Assembly: GCA_002373775.1 (NCBI GenBank)
Contig: DFJW01000111.1
Coordinates: 231 to 32,873 of the forward strand
Source: Ruminococcus flavefaciens
Lineage (GTDB): Bacteria > Bacillota > Clostridia > Oscillospirales > Ruminococcaceae
Direction: 5' to 3'
Length of the DNA stretch: 32,643 nucleotides
Each line of letters begins with the position of its first letter. Position 1 is the first letter of the stretch. The notes beneath the pieces were generated by a model. It saw only the letters and a program-made list of their open reading frames with translations, made no database searches and had not been told where the DNA came from. Both the position numbers and the translations under genes were made by a program. This document shows, piece after piece, positions 2,047 through 11,444 of the stretch.

Positions 2047-3603
2047 TCAATTCGGTGCTCTTGCAGGCTCAGCTGAGTTGAGCACCTCGTCAAGAGTTAC
2101 TGTTTTATCATCGTAGCTTGATACTGCATGTTCTGTTATCCACTCTATTATTGCTGTATCATTTCTGGTCAGTGGCTTCTGATATGGTCTGTAGTATTTA
2201 TTCAGGAGGTCAAGTGTCTCCTGAAGGTGGATGGAGTATATTGAGTATTCATTTCCGTCAGGACCGATATACGGCTTTGTTACGTCGCTTCCCTCTCCGG
2301 GTATCATATCGACCTGTACATCTTCCATTGTCAGATTGGATGCAAAATCTATCAGCTTGCTCAGGTCTTCGACACTCATATCTGTGGCTATCCACTTGTG
2401 ATCGTAGATCTGCTTCATGTAGCTGTAGAGCTTTGTCTTGCCTTCGTTCTTTGAAATATCCAGCATCTTCTGCATCGCTGCTGCCATGAATCTTCTCTGG
2501 TTCTGCATACGTCCGATGTCGCCTTCAAGCCAGCCGGCTCTGTAGCGGATGAACCACTCTGCCTGTACGCCGTCAAGAACGACATCACCGGAATCTACTA
2601 TTGTGACACCGTCATACTGGATAGGCGCATCAAGAGTCATCGGTATGCCTCCGACGCAGTCTACAAGATCTACTATGTCAAAACATGTTGTGGTCACATA
2701 GGCGTCTATCGCAATGCCGAAGCACTGGTATACTGCGTTGAAAACACGCTGTATCGGCGGATTTATATTCTGGTCGCCCATTGAATATATGCTGTTGAAT
2801 TTGGTATTCACGCAGCTTGTGAAATCCGGGACAGCTGTGTCTCGCGGTATCTGGAGTATCCTCAGCTTTCCTGCCATGATGTCGAACTGACACAGCCACA
2901 TAACATCGGTATTGAAGGATTCCTCATCAAATCCGAGGAAAAGTACTGTATACTGTCCCTCGACGATCTGGGGAAGGTCAAGTCCGTCATTGAAATCCTC
3001 AGGAACTACTTCTTCGTTGATCTTCGGATCAACTATCGTCTTGTCAAGCTCACCTTCGATCTCAACGAGCGGCTGCCAGCGCTTGAAATAGGTTATCAGC
3101 GATACTCGCTCTTTGCTGCCGTTCTTCTTGTACCATACGATAGGAAGATTCAGCACCATTACCGCTATTATCACAAGGCTCACCGCTATCGACATTACTT
3201 TCAGGACTACGTCGAGCCAGCTTCCTTTTTTCTTTTCATCGGCTTCATTGTATGCCTCATACATAGGCGGTATATATCCGCCCTGCATGTTTCCTCCGGG
3301 ATACTGACCGTTCTGCGGCATATTGCCGTATGCCGGAGGAGCTTCATGCTGTCCGCGGTACACATGCGGCGGTGCTTCATGCCTGCCGTGGTATTCCTGC
3401 GGCGGTGCTTCGTGCTGTCCGTGATACTCTTGCGGAGGTGCTTCATGCTTGCCGTGATACTCCTGCGGAGGAGCTTCGTGCTGTCCGTGATAAACTTCAC
3501 CGGACCTTGCGTTTCTGTCAACTTTAACAAGCTTCTTCAGCGGTTTCGGACGCTGCTCTTTATCCTGCACGCCCTGCGCCTCTAAATTATCATTGCTGTT
3601 CAT
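2047..3603 (-). CDS. LytR-CpsA-Psr (LCP) family cell-wall protein with N-terminal 11-residue repeats
   Basis: LCP proteins are membrane-anchored phosphotransferases that attach wall teichoic acid or capsule-type glycopolymers to peptidoglycan. Residues 1-128 are a polar, presumably cytoplasmic N-terminus. It contains five tandem repeats of the type YHGQHEAPPQE (residues 37-91) and a Gly/Asn/Tyr-rich stretch. One membrane segment spans about residues 129-153. The LCP domain runs from about 217 to 480 and shows the TVLFLGFD strand, the R254-D255 pair in QIPRDT, the VGGIPMTL block and the RYR ... GDIGRMQNQRRFM motif that binds polyprenyl pyrophosphate in the family. Its start overlaps the nadD-yqeK stop by 4 bases. 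The cytoplasmic repeat tail is unusual; the enzymatic domain is ordinary. The exact substrate cannot be told from sequence. Confidence 0.92.
   Translation of the reverse strand: MNSNDNLEAQGVQDKEQRPKPLKKLVKVDRNARSGEVYHGQHEAPPQEYHGKHEAPPQEYHGQHEAPPQEYHGRHEAPPHVYRGQHEAPPAYGNMPQNGQYPGGNMQGGYIPPMYEAYNEADEKKKGSWLDVVLKVMSIAVSLVIIAVMVLNLPIVWYKKNGSKERVSLITYFKRWQPLVEIEGELDKTIVDPKINEEVVPEDFNDGLDLPQIVEGQYTVLFLGFDEESFNTDVMWLCQFDIMAGKLRILQIPRDTAVPDFTSCVNTKFNSIYSMGDQNINPPIQRVFNAVYQCFGIAIDAYVTTTCFDIVDLVDCVGGIPMTLDAPIQYDGVTIVDSGDVVLDGVQAEWFIRYRAGWLEGDIGRMQNQRRFMAAAMQKMLDISKNEGKTKLYSYMKQIYDHKWIATDMSVEDLSKLIDFASNLTMEDVQVDMIPGEGSDVTKPYIGPDGNEYSIYSIHLQETLDLLNKYYRPYQKPLTRNDTAIIEWITEHAVSSYDDKTVTLDEVLNSAEPARAPN
3331..3495 (-). 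repeat. Five in-frame 33-base repeats encoding His/Pro-rich 11-mers
   Basis: Inside the LCP gene, five consecutive 33-base units encode variants of Y(H/R)G(Q/K/R)HEAPP(Q/H)(E/V). The nucleotide units differ mostly at third positions and at the Gln/Lys/Arg codon. They are therefore coding repeats under protein-level constraint, not a noncoding array. They lie on the predicted cytoplasmic side of the single membrane segment. Confidence 0.9.
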
Positions 3604-4817
3604 TTTGTTCCTCTTTTCGAATTGCTGCTCTTTTCTTCTCTTTCCAGTCTGATATAGAAATTATACCCCTCTGCTGTACATACCGGGATGAGTCCGCCTT
3701 TCTTTATGACCGCTTTCATCGAAAATGAAAGCGCTTCAAGCATTGCGGCATTCAGACTGGTGTAGGTCAGTTTCCGCATTTTATCAACATCCTTATAGTC
3801 CCTTTCAGCCGAGATAAGGTCACCCAGATACACTATCTCTTCAAGCCTTGACATTCCGGCTCTTCCGACTGTATGGAACCTTACCGCATTAAGGATGTCT
3901 ATGTCTTCAACTCCGAAATTAGTCTTTATGAAATACGCTCCTGCTATAGCATGCCAGAGTGACCGCGTTTCAAGTTCTTCGCGGCATACTGTGAATCCGC
4001 TGTTGATAACAAGAGCTTTCTGCTCTTCATCCGGAAGTTCCTTGCATATATCATGAAGAAGTCCTGCGTAATATGCTTTATCAGGATCTTCTCCGTACTT
4101 CTGCGCCAGTTTTCTGCATTCAGCCGCCACATTCAGTGAATGTGCGTACCTCTTTGCCGAAAGATGCGCTTTGAGATACTTCTTCTTTTCGTCGGGATCG
4201 TAATGCACTTTTGTTTCACCTCGTAATGAATATAATCCCTTCAATCTTATATATTGTACTACATTTTCGTCCAGATAGCAAGAGATATTCTTATTTTTTG
4301 CAATTTTTTTGCGTATCTCTGTCGATGATATCTCAAGCGGCTCGGCATTTCCGATAAGGACTTCGCCGAATTTTCCCAGTTCTTCAGCTTTTTTCCGAAG
4401 CTGCTCAGAGTCTCCGGTAATACGCGATATCACGCACAATGATGCCTCTTCAAGTATATCTTCGTATCTGAACCATTTATCAAAGCACATGAGCATGTCG
4501 CTGCCCACCAGCAGGAATAATTCGTCATCCGGGTAAAGGCTGCGGAAATGCTCTATGGTGTATATCGTATAGCTGACACGATCTACGCTGAGCTCATAGT
4601 CGCTGACATCCAGCCTTTCATCCACCGAAACTGCCGCATGCAGCATAGCAAGTCTGTCCTCGGCAGATACATACTCAGAACTTGAACGGTGAGGCGATAT
4701 CCTTGAAGGGACAAGGAACACCTTGTCCAGCGAGAATTCATCAGCTGCCGAACGTGCAAGATGTATATGACCGTTGTGGACAGGATTAAAACTGCCGCCG
4801 AATATTCCTATGCGCAT
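3600..4817 (-). CDS. nadD: NadD-YqeK fusion: nicotinate-nucleotide adenylyltransferase joined to HD-domain Ap4A hydrolase
   Basis: Residues 1-198 are NadD, which converts nicotinate mononucleotide and ATP to deamido-NAD. Visible are the GIFGGSFNPVHNGH nucleotide-binding motif, the LVGSDML..FDKW block and the EISSTEIRKKI signature. Residues 204-395 are YqeK, an HD-superfamily metal enzyme known to hydrolyse Ap4A symmetrically. Its metal ligands include H226 (RYAHS), H255-D256 (LLHDICKE), H289 and H315. NadD and YqeK are usually separate adjacent genes; here one 405-residue frame covers both. At the junction a GAGGTGA ribosome-binding sequence precedes an in-frame GTG (start base 4208, residue 204) at good spacing, so free YqeK could also be made. 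It sits between the flavodoxin-fold gene and the LCP gene. The fusion is read directly and the double-product idea is inference. Confidence 0.94.
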   Translation of the reverse strand: MRIGIFGGSFNPVHNGHIHLARSAADEFSLDKVFLVPSRISPHRSSSEYVSAEDRLAMLHAAVSVDERLDVSDYELSVDRVSYTIYTIEHFRSLYPDDELFLLVGSDMLMCFDKWFRYEDILEEASLCVISRITGDSEQLRKKAEELGKFGEVLIGNAEPLEISSTEIRKKIAKNKNISCYLDENVVQYIRLKGLYSLRGETKVHYDPDEKKKYLKAHLSAKRYAHSLNVAAECRKLAQKYGEDPDKAYYAGLLHDICKELPDEEQKALVINSGFTVCREELETRSLWHAIAGAYFIKTNFGVEDIDILNAVRFHTVGRAGMSRLEEIVYLGDLISAERDYKDVDKMRKLTYTSLNAAMLEALSFSMKAVIKKGGLIPVCTAEGYNFYIRLEREEKSSNSKRGTK

Positions 4818-5833: not shown

Positions 5834-6433
5834 TCATTCACCATATCTTTCTTTGAGTAAACGGTACAGCGCTCTCATTGCCGCACCTCTGTGACTTATG
5901 GAATTCTTTTCATCTGCGGACATCTCCGCAAGTGTCCTTCCCCCGTATTCGAATACCGGATCATAGCCGAAACCATTGGTACCGCGCTCTTCGTATCCTA
6001 TCTTGCCGCGGCACTCGCCGCTTACTGATGCGGCTTCTCCGTTTTCATCCACGAATACCACCGAGCATACGAATTTTGCTCCGCGCTCGCTTTCGGACAC
6101 TCCTTCCATTTCTGAAAGAAGCTTTGCGCACTTCTCGCCGTCAGGCGCGTATCTCGCGGAATGTACCCCCGGTCTGCCGCCGAGAGCATCTACGCAGAGT
6201 CCGCTGTCGTCTGCAAAGACCGCTATCTTTATACCATTCGCACGGGCTGCCTCTTTCTGGACAGCTCTCGCTTTTATCCCGGCATTCTCTTCAAATGTAA
6301 CGCCGTTTTCGTCAGGATCACAGTCTATGCCAAGTTCTTTTAGCGATACCACTTCTATGCCGAGAGGAGACAGTATCTCCCTCGCTTCACGGAGCTTCCC
6401 GGCGTTGTTGGTCGCCATAAGTATCTTATTCAT
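5834..6433 (-). CDS. rdgB: XTP/dITP diphosphatase (house-cleaning NTPase, RdgB/HAM1 family)
   Basis: This enzyme hydrolyses non-canonical purine triphosphates such as dITP and XTP to monophosphates and pyrophosphate, protecting DNA and RNA. The chosen start gives [13 protein letters not shown], the invariant N-terminal substrate-binding motif. Further family blocks are FADDSGLCVDALGGRPGVHSARYA with metal and base contacts, GTNGFGYDPVF, and the C-terminal SHRGAAMRAL. The length of 199 residues is normal. The frame extends six codons further upstream, but GAGGA sits about 8 bases before the MNK ATG, which decides the start. The gene begins inside the last codons of ftsY, overlapping by 8 bases, so the two are probably translationally coupled. 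Confidence 0.95.
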   Translation of the reverse strand: MNKILMATNNAGKLREAREILSPLGIEVVSLKELGIDCDPDENGVTFEENAGIKARAVQKEAARANGIKIAVFADDSGLCVDALGGRPGVHSARYAPDGEKCAKLLSEMEGVSESERGAKFVCSVVFVDENGEAASVSGECRGKIGYEERGTNGFGYDPVFEYGGRTLAEMSADEKNSISHRGAAMRALYRLLKERYGE

Positions 6434-7850
6434 CCTGATCTTCCTCATCATCGCTCAGGTCATCGTCTGAGCCGTCATCATCGTCCTCTTCAGGCTCTTC
6501 CTCATACTTCTTTCTGCCGAAAAGTCTGCTGAAGAATCCGCGCTTCTTCTTTTTCTCCGGTTCAGCAGGAACTGCCTCTTCCTCTTCTTCATCTTCATCG
6601 GTTTCCTCAGAAGCATCGCCGAGGTCTTCGTCATATCCCTCGCCTGACTCTTCTGATGTCTCTTCGTCATCCGCATCATTCTCTGCTGATGCAGCTGCAA
6701 ATGATACATTCTCCGGCTCTGATGCGTCTTCATCATCTGCGTTCAGACCGTCAGCCGACTCTTCTTCATCTTCCTCAGGTACGGACTGTCCGTAATACTC
6801 ATATACAGCTGCTTCTGCTTCCTGTACATCTGTTTCCTCGTCTGCATCTTCTGCATCGGTATCTGCGTCATAGTCTTCAAGGTCAGCATCTTCAGCTTCT
6901 CCGGCTTCGTCTGTGCGCTCTTCATCTTCATCATCAAGATCAGTATCACTGAACAGTGCCTCAACAAAGGTGTGGCTGTCAAATGGCTGGAGATCGTCTA
7001 TCTTCTCGCCGACGCCGATGAGCTTTACCGGTATGCCGAGTTCGTTCTTTATGGATATGACTATTCCGCCCTTGGCTGTTCCGTCAAGCTTGGTGAGCAC
7101 GATGCCGGTGATAGGTGCTGTCTCACTGAAAAGTTTCGCCTGATTTACCGCATTCTGACCTGTTGTCGCATCAAGTACGAGAAGGACTTCTCTTGAACAC
7201 TCTTCCGACTTCTTGTCTATTATACGGTTTATCTTCGCAAGTTCTTCCATGAGGTTCTTCTTGTTGTGGAGACGGCCTGCTGTGTCTATTATAACTACGT
7301 CACACTCTCTCGCTCTTGCTGCTTCAAGTGCGTCATATACTACTGCTCCCGGATCCGAACCCTCGGCATGCTTCACTATGTCAACGCCTGCGCGCTGTGT
7401 CCACACTTCAAGCTGATCTATCGCAGCTGCACGGAATGTATCTGCTGCTGCTACAAGAACCTTCTTGCCCTCGTTCTTGAACTGATAGCAAAGCTTTCCG
7501 ATCGTGGTAGTCTTGCCTGCTCCGTTTACGCCGATAACCATTATTACTGCCGGAGTTTTCGTGAGGTCAAGACCTGTGTCGTCGCCCATCATGTCTGCGA
7601 TTATCTCCTGTATAAGATCCATGATCTCGTTGGGATCGGTGATGCCGCGCTCCTTTATGGTCTTGCGCAGTCTGTCACATATCTCCTCAGAGGTCTCGAC
7701 TCCTATATCGCTCATTATCATGGCTTCTTCAAGTTCTTCGAAGAGTTCTTCATCTATTTTTGTGAATGAGTTGAATATGCGCTTCAGCCTTCCAAGGAAA
7801 TTGTCCTTTGTCTTTCTGAGACCGGCTGCTATCTTTGCTATTATTCCCAT
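6426..7850 (-). CDS. ftsY: Signal recognition particle receptor FtsY with relocated C-terminal acidic domain
   Basis: This SRP-receptor GTPase docks SRP-ribosome complexes at the membrane. Residues 1-300 are the NG domain: N-helices, G1 [14 protein letters not shown] (107-120), DTFRAAA, G3 [12 protein letters not shown], the TTGQNA loop, [10 protein letters not shown] and the closing [13 protein letters not shown]. The protein starts almost directly at the NG domain. After residue 300 comes a 174-residue, very acidic tail. It contains a basic-amphipathic patch, [16 protein letters not shown] (433-448), then more Asp/Glu. In E. coli FtsY an acidic A domain with a similar KKRGFFSWL motif is N-terminal, so this arrangement looks inverted. 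An AGGAGG ribosome binding site precedes the ATG. The gene lies after smc and overlaps rdgB. The function of the tail is inference. Confidence 0.95.
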
Positions 7851-7871: not shown

Positions 7872-10800
7872 TTATTGTATATCAGCTGCATCCTCCTGGA
7901 AATCCACCTGCTCCATTTTCAGCAGCTTGGATATCCCGTCTTCCTGCATCGTTACGCCGTAGAGTACATTTGCCTCTTCCATGGCGCTGCGTCTGTGCGT
8001 TACAAGCACGAACTGCGTGGTATCTGTGAAGTGTTTCAGATACTGCGCGTACTTTCTTACATTTACTTCGTCAAGAGCTGCATCGATCTCGTCAAGTATG
8101 CAGAACGGCGCAGGTCTCAGCCTGAGTATCGCAAAATATATCGCTATCGCTACAAAGGACTGCTCGCCTCCGGACAGCGATATCAGATTCTTTATTACTT
8201 TTCCGGGCGGCGCTACGCTGATCTCGATACCGGATTCAAGCACGTTCTCGGGATCACTGAGTATGAGCTCTGCCTTTCCTCCGCCGAAAAGTTCTGTGAA
8301 TATGGACTTGAAATTTGAATTGATTATCTGGAAACTCTCAGAGAATATCCTGCACATCTCTTCTGTGAGGCTGCTTATGAGTTTTTCAAGTTCAGATTTG
8401 GAGCGCTGTACGTCTGCAATCTGCTGAGACATGAACTCATATCTCTCGGATACTTCCTTGTATTCCTCTATTGCTCCCACATTTACATTGCCCAGTGCGC
8501 TTATGCTGCGTTTGATGCTGGTCAGTTCAGCCTGTGCTGCACTCATGTCCTCTATCTTCTCCGCAAGCTGCACCGCCTCAGACCTTGTGAGTTCATACAC
8601 TTCAAGGAGCTGATTCACTATGCCGGATGCGTCACGGTTCACGGATTCTCTCTGGGATTCAAGGCGCGTCATGTCCGCTGAGCTCTTTTCCTTTGCTTCA
8701 TTCAGCCCGCGCAGTCCCTTCTTCATCTCGTTCACAAGACGATTCTGCTCTGTGCTCATGTCCTGCCAGCGCTTTATCTCTTCAAGATATGCGGCACTGT
8801 TGTCTTTAAGTCCGGCAAGAGCATTTTTCAGCTTGTCTATCTCGATCTGCTTATGTGTGATTATGTCTTCCTGACGGAATATCTCATCTTCAAAGCGTTT
8901 GCTGCCGCCTTCGAGATCTTTGAGCTGTTCCTCTATGCGCTGCACTTCACGTTCCTGAGCCTCAGTATCCTTGGCGAGTTCTACCGCCTTCAGCCTCTTC
9001 TGAGAGAGCAGTTCGGATAATTCTGCACGCTTCAGACGCAGTTTCTCGCGAACGCCCTGCTCTTCTGCAAGGGCTTCCTCAGCTTTTCTTATCAGCTCAT
9101 CAGTTCCGGCAAGAGCCGCTTCAGCATCAGCTGCTGCTTTTTCATGCCCGGCTATGAGCGCTTTGGTATCTTCTATGAGTTTTCCGGAATTCTCCGCCTG
9201 CGCTATGAACTGCTCTATCAGCTGTTCAAGGCTGCTTTTTTCCGCTTTTATACGGAATGACTCAGCCTCATTGGCTGCCTGCTCTTCCTTTGCGGCTTCG
9301 GTATCGTATCTCAGTTTTTCTGCCTCGGCACGAAGTTTGTCCACATTTTTGCTGAGTTCATCACGGGATGCCGAAAGATCTGATATCTCCCTGTCGAGTG
9401 TATCTATCTCGTTCTTTCTCGTTATAACTCCTCCGGACTTCTGCGCTGAACCGCCGGTAAATGAACCGCCGGCATTTATCACCTGTCCGTCCAGTGTTAC
9501 TATGCGGAATCTGTAGCCGTACCGCTTGGCTATATTAGTCGCTGTATCAATGTCTTCTGCGATCACTATGCGTCCCAGAAGCGACGTCATTATGCCGCTC
9601 AGTTTAGGATCAAAGTCGATGATCTTCACTGCCATTGCTACAAAGCCTTCGCAGTTCTCGATCCCCTGCTCCCGGAGTTCATTGCCGCGCACTGAAGTTA
9701 TGGGAAGGAATGTCGCTCTTCCGCCTTTCTGCTCTTTCAGGAAACGGATGCACCTCTTGGCGATGTCTTCGTTCTCAACTATGATATTCTGCATCGCTCC
9801 GCCAAGTGCTGTTTCAACTGCTACGGCATACTCCGGAGCAACTCCGATATTCTGCGCTACTGTTCCGAGCACGCCTCCGATGCGTCCCTGTTTTGAAGCA
9901 CGGAGGACCTGCTTGACGCTGCCCGCAAAGCCTTCCATATTGCTTTCCAGATCAGAAAGTATCCTCCGGCGCTGCTGCTTGTCCTTCAGTTCATAGAGAG
10001 CTTTCTCAAATTCGCTTTTCGCCTGCTCAAAACGCTCTCTGCGCGAACCGTAAAGCTTTTCTGTTCCGGCAAGTTTATTGCGTATGCTCTCGGCAGCCTG
10101 AGCGTTCTCTGCAAGCCTGTCTTCACATGCCCTTATGCGTCCGCGGTATTCTTCAAGTGTACTCTCGGCTGCGTTTCCGCTGTCGTTCAGTTCAGCCAGC
10201 CTTCTGCGCTGCTCATCAGCTGCTTTTTTCGCAGCTTCAACCGCAAAACGGTATTCGCTCTGCTTTATATAAAGACTGTTCACCTCGCTGCCGGCTTTAT
10301 CAACATTTTCACCGATCTGCGAATTGTCCTTCTCTGCCTTTTCAAATTCAGCAGCTGCTGAGGCGATCTCAGCTTCAAGTGCTTTTCTCGTCTCTTCCAG
10401 TTCGGAGAGCTTTTTCTCTGCGGATGCCTTTTCAGACAGAAGCTGTCTGCGTACTTCTCCGGAATCGGATATGTTCTTCTTCGCTGTTTCAATTGCTTCG
10501 CTGCAGTACCTGATATCAGTTTCATATACTGCTATTCCGGATTTCATGTCAGAAGCCGACTGCTCCTCTTCAAGCATTTTTCTGCGTATCTCATCCTGAC
10601 GTGCTGTGCTTTCGTTTATCTTGCGATATCCGTCGTCTATCTTCTGCTCTTCACGCCGGATGTCGTTTTCAAGATTGGTGTACTCGTTCTGACATATCAG
10701 CAGTTTCTCATCCAGTGTGTCCAGCTTCGTCTTGTATTCTTCAAGCTTTCGCACCCAGACAGATATCTCCAGTCTCTTCTTCTGCTCTGCCAGCTTTATG

Positions 10801-11444
10801 AACTTCTCTGCCTTTTCAGACTGGGTTTTCAGCGGTCCTACGCGGCTTTCCAGTTCGGAAAGGATGTCTGTCAGACGCACAAGGTTCTCCTGCGCTGCTG
10901 ACAGTTTCCTTTCAGCTTCGAGCTTCTTGTACCGGAATTTGGATATTCCTGCTGCTTCTTCGAAAATATCTCTTCTCTCACTGCTCTTTGCTCCGACTAT
11001 CTCGGCTATCCTGCCTTGTCCGATTATAGAGTATCCGTCTCTGCCGAGTCCGGTATCCATGAAGAGCTCGTTTATGTCCTTCAGACGGCACTGCCTGCCG
11101 TTTATCATGTATTCGCTCTCTCCGCTGCGGTAAAGTTTTCTCGTGACCGCAACTTCATCTTCCATGTCTGCAAGAGTCTTGTCTGTATTGTCGATATTCA
11201 GCGTTACAGCTGCGAATCCCATAGGTTTCCTTGCAACAGTACCGGAAAAAATAACGTCTTCCATTTTATTGCCGCGGAGAGTTTTGGTGGACTGCTCTCC
11301 AAGTACCCAGCGGACTGAGTCGCCGATGTTACTTTTTCCGCTGCCGTTAGGTCCTACTACTGCGGTAAGTCCTTTGTCAAAGGTCAGGCTTATCTTGTCG
11401 GGAAACGACTTGAAGCCCTGTATTTCCAATGATTTGAGGTACAC
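7872..11444 (-). CDS. smc: Chromosome segregation ATPase SMC
   Basis: SMC is a DNA-loop-forming condensin ATPase that acts with ScpA/ScpB in chromosome organisation. The 1190-residue length is typical. The N-terminal head shows Walker A GPNGSGKSN (about residues 32-40) and the WVLGEQS Q-loop. Two long coiled coils (about 170-500 and 690-1000) flank the hinge (about 515-675, with GGVLGTVAQNI and INAGGSFTGGSA). The C-terminal head has the signature LSGGEQSFVAIAIYFA, Walker B CILDEIDAALDE and the final VLVTHRRSAMEEAN switch. The start is GTG at 11444, preceded by AAGGCGG that overlaps the radical SAM gene end. The order rnc, radical SAM, smc, ftsY is characteristic of Clostridia. No scpA or scpB is in the window. 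Confidence 0.98.
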   Translation of the reverse strand: MYLKSLEIQGFKSFPDKISLTFDKGLTAVVGPNGSGKSNIGDSVRWVLGEQSTKTLRGNKMEDVIFSGTVARKPMGFAAVTLNIDNTDKTLADMEDEVAVTRKLYRSGESEYMINGRQCRLKDINELFMDTGLGRDGYSIIGQGRIAEIVGAKSSERRDIFEEAAGISKFRYKKLEAERKLSAAQENLVRLTDILSELESRVGPLKTQSEKAEKFIKLAEQKKRLEISVWVRKLEEYKTKLDTLDEKLLICQNEYTNLENDIRREEQKIDDGYRKINESTARQDEIRRKMLEEEQSASDMKSGIAVYETDIRYCSEAIETAKKNISDSGEVRRQLLSEKASAEKKLSELEETRKALEAEIASAAAEFEKAEKDNSQIGENVDKAGSEVNSLYIKQSEYRFAVEAAKKAADEQRRRLAELNDSGNAAESTLEEYRGRIRACEDRLAENAQAAESIRNKLAGTEKLYGSRRERFEQAKSEFEKALYELKDKQQRRRILSDLESNMEGFAGSVKQVLRASKQGRIGGVLGTVAQNIGVAPEYAVAVETALGGAMQNIIVENEDIAKRCIRFLKEQKGGRATFLPITSVRGNELREQGIENCEGFVAMAVKIIDFDPKLSGIMTSLLGRIVIAEDIDTATNIAKRYGYRFRIVTLDGQVINAGGSFTGGSAQKSGGVITRKNEIDTLDREISDLSASRDELSKNVDKLRAEAEKLRYDTEAAKEEQAANEAESFRIKAEKSSLEQLIEQFIAQAENSGKLIEDTKALIAGHEKAAADAEAALAGTDELIRKAEEALAEEQGVREKLRLKRAELSELLSQKRLKAVELAKDTEAQEREVQRIEEQLKDLEGGSKRFEDEIFRQEDIITHKQIEIDKLKNALAGLKDNSAAYLEEIKRWQDMSTEQNRLVNEMKKGLRGLNEAKEKSSADMTRLESQRESVNRDASGIVNQLLEVYELTRSEAVQLAEKIEDMSAAQAELTSIKRSISALGNVNVGAIEEYKEVSERYEFMSQQIADVQRSKSELEKLISSLTEEMCRIFSESFQIINSNFKSIFTELFGGGKAELILSDPENVLESGIEISVAPPGKVIKNLISLSGGEQSFVAIAIYFAILRLRPAPFCILDEIDAALDEVNVRKYAQYLKHFTDTTQFVLVTHRRSAMEEANVLYGVTMQEDGISKLLKMEQVDFQEDAADIQ

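Follow-up and report, generated by a model that had tools for sequence, protein, structure and literature searches.

The SRP receptor FtsY encoded in the window (the whole stretch of 32,643 nucleotides that was analysed, from contig DFJW01000111.1 of the Ruminococcus flavefaciens assembly GCA_002373775.1) ends in a long acidic tail that follows the GTPase domain and carries a basic-aromatic patch. This tail is a real, conserved variant of FtsY architecture. By analogy with E. coli FtsY, the patch of this predicted-disordered tail likely binds the membrane surface and would serve, at the C-terminus, the role that the A domain plays at the N-terminus of the E. coli protein. The best reading of the evidence is that the patch-bearing tail is a mirror variant of the known A-domain-like tether.

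The ftsY gene (6426..7850, minus strand) encodes 474 aa with matches to PF02881 and PF00448, and to TIGR00064 over residues 31-300 (368.9 bits, cut-off 260.7). The SRP54_N domain spans residues 20-82, the GTPase (G) domain residues 100-300 (6951..7553, minus strand; PF00448, 266.7 bits), and solved relatives are matched (e.g., 1vma, E 1.1e-96). Only one of the six TIGR00064 matches in the genome is over the cut-off, and that one is this FtsY; the second-best (237.8 bits) falls below it, in a 465-aa frame that is Ffh-like by length. The order of genes on the minus strand is smc (7872-11444), ftsY, rdgB, and a yhbY-like gene that scores 78.3 bits against a cut-off of 78.5; a nadD-YqeK HD domain fusion (3600-4817, minus strand; PRK07152 over cut-off) is an ordinary fusion. 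The earlier note, made from the sequence alone, held that the protein begins directly with NG. Instead, residues 1-30 correspond in alignments to the N-terminal helix region of solved FtsYs (1vma, 7o9h), and residues 3-26 form a helix in an AlphaFold model, at low confidence (pLDDT <50 for residues 1-23) in what is a poor model overall (mean pLDDT 55, alignment of 30 sequences). The N-terminal helix alphaN1 (residues 1-26; 7773..7850, minus strand), which in FtsY is the usual region for membrane targeting, is thus retained. A circular permutation of the NG core was considered and ruled out, given the normal domain order and the retained alphaN1. Downstream, the longest rdgB frame starts at 6451, and TIGR00042 and PRK14822 (XTP/dITP diphosphatase) match it from residues 9 and 7. 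Because the PRK14822 match begins at residue 7, the likely start is 6433 (gene at 5834..6433, minus strand), which gives an 8-base overlap with the ftsY stop. This overlap had been taken as a sign that the tail is translated; it is real but short. On its own it says little about the tail, and conservation says more.

The tail (residues 301-474) extends an ordinary NG core by 174 aa, among them 39 Asp, 46 Glu, 6 Lys, and 4 Arg, so that 49% of it is Asp/Glu, in agreement with the earlier description of an Asp/Glu-rich tail. It comprises an acidic, predicted-disordered linker of low identity (residues 303-432; 6555..6944), the basic-aromatic patch (residues 433-448; 6507..6554), and, as read in the sequence, an acidic C-terminal cap (residues 449-474; 6429..6506), all on the minus strand; in many relatives, the patch is followed by only a few, mostly acidic residues. 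The patch is supported by conservation, codon change across loci, a genus-wide profile, and its likeness to the E. coli FtsY N-terminus. Nine of the 10 Lys/Arg residues of the tail lie inside one 16-residue stretch, an arrangement matched in 0 of 2000 shuffles, and the net charge of the patch (+8) is the highest among all 18-residue stretches of the protein. It had been proposed to model this region as an amphipathic helix. However, the hydrophobic moment of the patch 12-mer (0.358) was equaled or exceeded by 40% of shuffles, and 18-residue moments were 0.14-0.16 for the patch versus 0.25-0.33 for the E. coli FtsY N-terminus and 0.48-0.50 for alphaN1 helices. Residues 302-471 have pLDDT <50 in the same poor model, with no helix in the patch region. 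An amphipathic helix was therefore rejected on the moment, and the patch is instead a basic-aromatic cluster. As in an A domain, the tail is acidic, variable, and without stable structure (49% Asp/Glu, linker identity 0.41, pLDDT <50) and, as in E. coli, bears a distal basic-aromatic patch. A domains are located N-terminal to NG, whereas the tail follows residue 300, and we therefore regard it as probably A-domain-like in its working without filing it as an A domain.

Among the best 120 of at least 7993 scored candidates, a set that favors tailed proteins because ranking was by full-length score, all 120 matches listed have a long acidic tail with a patch, and a single patch pattern fits 119 of them; the exception (P0012) reads GFFSRLFSRK (KKKKKGFFSRLFSRK). 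Mean pairwise identity, calculated for 40 sampled of the 119 homologues listed, is 0.91 for NG, 0.41 for the linker, and 0.89 for the patch. Across 21 loci, pN/pS is 0.139 for the patch and 0.197 for NG, values to be read with a pS near saturation (0.75-0.78) and with a patch pN that is lowered because the loci were picked by the patch pattern. Patch codons thus change mostly silently; in 15 Ruminococcus loci, eight of 11 patch positions keep one amino acid throughout, and seven of those eight vary in codon. Records under the name Ruminococcus flavefaciens (ND2009, MC2020, and SAb67) have the tail as well. An assembly artefact or frameshift was ruled out by these records together with the 120 homologues listed. 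The earlier note had named a frameshifted tail, or homologues with unrelated low-complexity sequence, as findings that would overturn its proposal; neither was found, since the tail recurs in all 120 listed and patch identity is 0.89. We consider it very improbable that the tail is a functionless low-complexity acidic expansion in which the patch is a hitch-hiking remnant or a product of chance: although the linker diverges fast and most of the family does without a tail, a patch identity of 0.89 against 0.41 in the linker, a pN/pS of 0.14, and the occurrence of tails in separate lineages speak against it.

The pattern of conservation within the patch also bears on what it could bind. One alternative is an RNA- or ribosome-binding tail, whose lysines would contact rRNA or SRP RNA and help ribosome handover, with the linker as a spacer; the exceptional +8 charge, and the lysine runs that end some relatives (L012, L044), would suit such a role. 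What is conserved, however, is a core, GFFxRLFG, and not lysine alone: G438, F439, F440, F444, and G445 are invariant in 30 aligned homologues, and several bulky hydrophobic residues accompany the lysines in the patched tails, as judged by eye. We therefore think RNA binding improbable.

To see whether the patch is a feature of FtsY, a profile built from 14 patches was run against 30 relatives, of which 18 were same-genus genomes (counting that of the window) and 12 were others of the order. It matched at E <= 9.1e-6 in 16 of the 18 same-genus genomes and in none of the 12 others (best E 0.026). Fourteen of the 16 strong matches lie in one frame with an FtsY NG domain, and the remaining two (L238, L250) are pieces of FtsY-like tails at the ends of contigs. 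The L250 genome also encodes, on another contig (L273), an FtsY with a tail that runs past the contig's end, whereas in the L238 genome no FtsY exceeds the cut-off. Of the two same-genus genomes without a strong match, G533 has a truncated tail with the patch variant QGLFGKLFGNK; the FtsY of G546 is complete, but its mostly acidic tail of 21 aa lacks the patch, which indicates that the tail is dispensable there. Four weaker matches (G531, G537, G540, G542) fall in another, non-FtsY protein, and the sequence fetched for a further weak G537 match (E 0.083) has no patch in it. This other protein is encoded in the four same-genus genomes (L267-L270) by a 666-794-aa frame with an internal patch, worded KKGFFSRIKSVI in L269, KKGFFSKI in L270, and KKMGFFKKL in L267 and L268. 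In the L269 frame (P0121, L269:176-2173, minus strand), which has no Pfam or NCBIfam match, the patch is embedded in an extended acidic region, after which comes one likely transmembrane segment, as judged by eye. The patch may be a membrane-surface device shared beyond FtsY. We also observed that the FtsY tails of L252 (G532:C35) and L041 carry two patches each and that the L041 linker contains EEVP-like repeats, which recall those of the archaeal R region. In G535, no FtsY exceeds the cut-off and two frames, of 470 and 463 aa, are Ffh-like, probably because of an assembly gap or contamination.

The wider distribution of the tail was surveyed within the window's own phylum. An even draw from the family (119 genomes) gave 113 with an FtsY over the cut-off, of which 102 were parsed; the 11 outside the parsed set have open frames of at most 325 aa. 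C-terminal tails in the family are bimodal, with 93-213 residues in 11 of the 102 and at most 17 in the rest, and most of the family has neither an N- nor a C-terminal extension. By eye, a basic-aromatic patch is present in all 11 long family tails: four share one 12-residue type, six are GKFGFLFKEI[ST]FGKKKK-like (with variants in L036 and L042), and one has two patches. No C-tail was seen among the eight long frames fetched from the order draw (137 of 142 genomes over the cut-off), and none longer than 25 aa among 17 fetched from the phylum draw (130 of 139). One of the 23 fetched from the class draw, where 130 of 143 genomes were over the cut-off, has a C-tail; this is L134, which belongs to another family and ends KKSGGFFSFFKKKK. 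A scan of named genomes returned 80 loci, a sample biased because three of the six search words came from the acidic tail, and C-tails of at least 60 aa were found in 24 of these (L159 truncated; L193 left out because of a parsing error). The tails of L180, L184, and L186 end KKKKGFFGRLFG, while those of L179 and L181 consist of 274-284 aa of charged repeats (EKAEAERIAA in L179) and end RRGLFGFFNRHS and RKGLFGLFNRHS, respectively. L177 and L197 have C-tails without a basic patch, with similar-looking but different endings (SLYGSIDKFYL and DIYGSVGKFYF). Clustering of Lys/Arg is significant (p<0.01) in only 21 of 36 C-tails and in five of the 11 family tails, and is weak in type B. As to how far the C-terminal form extends, a question that the earlier note had raised, C-tails whose patches are worded otherwise are present in further branches of the family, in a distinct Oscillospiraceae/Clostridia clade, and, in a single case (L134), in a different clostridial family.

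These differences in wording are informative about the target of the patch. The tail could be a protein-protein module in which the patch docks on SecYEG, YidC, or the protein's own NG (autoinhibition), or recruits SRP, with lipid of minor importance. Passages of PMC8082313 report that the E. coli A domain shields the SRP site until FtsY meets SecYEG, and parts of PMC2905702 suggest that the Haloferax A domain may recruit SRP; very high patch constancy among close relatives would also be expected of such a module. However, patches of other wording stand at the same tail position in other groups (GKFGFLFKEITFGKKKK, KKKKGFFGRLFG, RRGLFGFFNRHS), and varied wording is easier to reconcile with a physicochemical target than with a single fixed protein surface. 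We therefore view a protein-docking role as unlikely, if a little less so than RNA binding. In the membrane-binding reading that we prefer, the patch would make a second, distal contact with the membrane surface (lipids, perhaps SecYEG too), its lysines meeting anionic lipid head groups and its Phe/Leu side chains inserting into the membrane. The acidic linker would act as an extended spacer repelled by the membrane, and alphaN1 would be a second, NG-proximal membrane contact. Because the patch is made last, its contact could form only near the end of translation. The analogy draws on the statement, in the consulted part of PMC8082313, that the E. coli A domain and adjacent sequence at the NG junction mediate membrane binding. 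The Haloferax A domain, described in sections of PMC2905702 as dispensable for membrane attachment, counts against it.

The mirror arrangement, with the acidic module at the N-terminus, also occurs. A script identified an acidic N-extension in 22 of the 40 long FtsYs that were taken from the class and phylum draws (L116-L122, L124, L126, L127, L129-L133, L135, L144, L147-L149, L152, L153), and several of these extensions start with a basic-aromatic patch (MANFFKKLFGK, MATEKKKGFFSRLKEG, MANFFKKLFGKD, MGNFFKNLFKKN). Script parses of L116 and L193 were wrong, so that the former was read by hand and the latter dropped from the set; the long N-terminal frames of L043, L051, L054, and L059 seem to be read-through from upstream of the true start, and the parsed FtsYs include two identical pairs (L017/L175, L124/L199). 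Across the 229 parsed FtsYs, 31 have an acidic N-extension, 36 have a C-tail, and none has both, an exclusivity that is no more than suggestive, given non-random sampling and shared ancestry among the sequences. The patch of the window had been described as close in form to the N-terminal motif of E. coli FtsY, and residue order bears this out: against the E. coli N-terminus (read from L236) it reaches a local score of 52, which none of 1000 composition shuffles equaled, and against the N-terminus of the clostridial FtsY L116 a score of 44, again reached by 0 of 1000. A panel of 26 N-termini was also picked by hand, made up of E. coli, L128, and 24 of the 31 acidic N-extensions, with starts that were set at the first Met and may be wrong for some. 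Against this panel, the mean score was reached by six of 1000 shuffles; taken singly, seven of the 26 fall below 0.05 and 19 show no order-specific likeness. Type B patches show no order-specific likeness to this panel (0.43 of shuffles). A control with the linker minus the patch scored 25.4 against the panel, and the patch 24.7; this control is uninformative, since the much greater length of the linker and the partly acidic make-up of the panel account for its score. Comparison of the patch with an alphaN1 start (GFFSKI-like) gave a shuffle fraction of 0.048; on this sequence likeness, the patch could have arisen as a copy of the start of alphaN1, but the case is weak.

Whether the A domain was moved from one end to the other, as the idea of a transplanted domain implies, is a separate question. 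An A-domain-like module does stand at the other end, and to that extent the idea holds, but nothing has left the N-terminus: alphaN1 is retained and relatives lack the tail. With the N-terminal helix kept and most of the family without either extension, the tail is most simply a gain. In a first NG tree (110 rows, bootstrap not settled), the GFFSRLFG group (95/60) stands apart from the GKFGFLFKE group (bootstrap 100, starred), with tail-less lineages between them, and L045, the one family member with a long acidic N-extension, is sister to the GFFSRLFG group with modest support (92/71). A quick tree without bootstrap (139 rows, 26 tailed; long branches L047 and L112 dropped) needs seven changes between tail and no tail, at least four of them forced by starred branches, and places L045 and L012 in an open fork; in it, the C-tailed L134 pairs with L152, which has an acidic stretch at its N-terminus. 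Gain and loss are not rigorously separable on these trees, on which several gains are the simplest account, so the tail probably evolved more than once. Compensation for a weak alphaN1 was ruled out as the reason for the tail: between the 11 tailed and 91 tail-less family FtsYs, alphaN1 does not differ in moment (p 0.87) or charge (p 0.54), and on average it is slightly more hydrophobic in the tailed ones (p 0.012). With alphaN1 unchanged, the tail adds to it.

No description of a bacterial C-terminal FtsY tether was found in the open-access literature; as subscription papers lie mostly outside this search, absence from print is unproven. According to the portions of PMC7987157 considered, some FtsYs have extended N-termini that arose several times, and C-terminal regions are typical of Ffh. 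The C-terminal extensions in the relevant part of PMC8321541 concern Oxa1 and MAP67. A remark in PMC12826062, itself a personal observation in the text seen, calls a negatively charged A domain uncommon outside gammaproteobacteria, and the clostridial acidic N-extensions reported here argue against that rarity. Parts of PMC4737761 and PMC7549839 were also taken into account. The role of the E. coli A domain is disputed: in extracts of PMC8082313, it is dispensable for targeting, yet is said to bind the membrane, to shield the SRP site, and to raise fidelity. A natural mirror version separates these roles, since a tether should tolerate a shift to the other end, whereas a gate of the SRP site or a translation-time signal of membrane arrival should not. 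We put at nearly even odds, leaning slightly to doubt, a broader proposal in which the FtsY tether would be position-independent, a module of acidic spacer and basic-aromatic patch built repeatedly on either end. The A domain would then be a generic electrostatic fishing line with no fixed allosteric seat, and the C-terminal site in Ruminococcus would force post-translational anchoring there.

Set against known systems, the window FtsY shares its NG core and alphaN1 with FtsYs that have no A domain, the form of most of the family, and differs from them by its tail. The nearest precedent for the location comes from archaeal FtsY, in which an R region with EPVP repeats likewise extends the protein past NG at the C-terminus; its function is given as unknown in sections of PMC2905702. 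This region is unrelated, and differs in its proline-rich EPVP/EPTP repeats, none of the EPVP type being present in the window tail, and in that those sections describe no basic-aromatic patch. Several N-extensions of other Clostridia and Bacillota consist, like the window module, of a patch and acidic residues, patch first, but at the opposite end of the protein. The closest likeness is to E. coli FtsY, where alphaN1 is also kept next to NG and the A domain likewise combines an acidic, variable stretch with a distal basic-aromatic patch, the motif KKRGFFS being identical in both; in E. coli, this module precedes the GTPase domain, whereas in the window FtsY it follows it.
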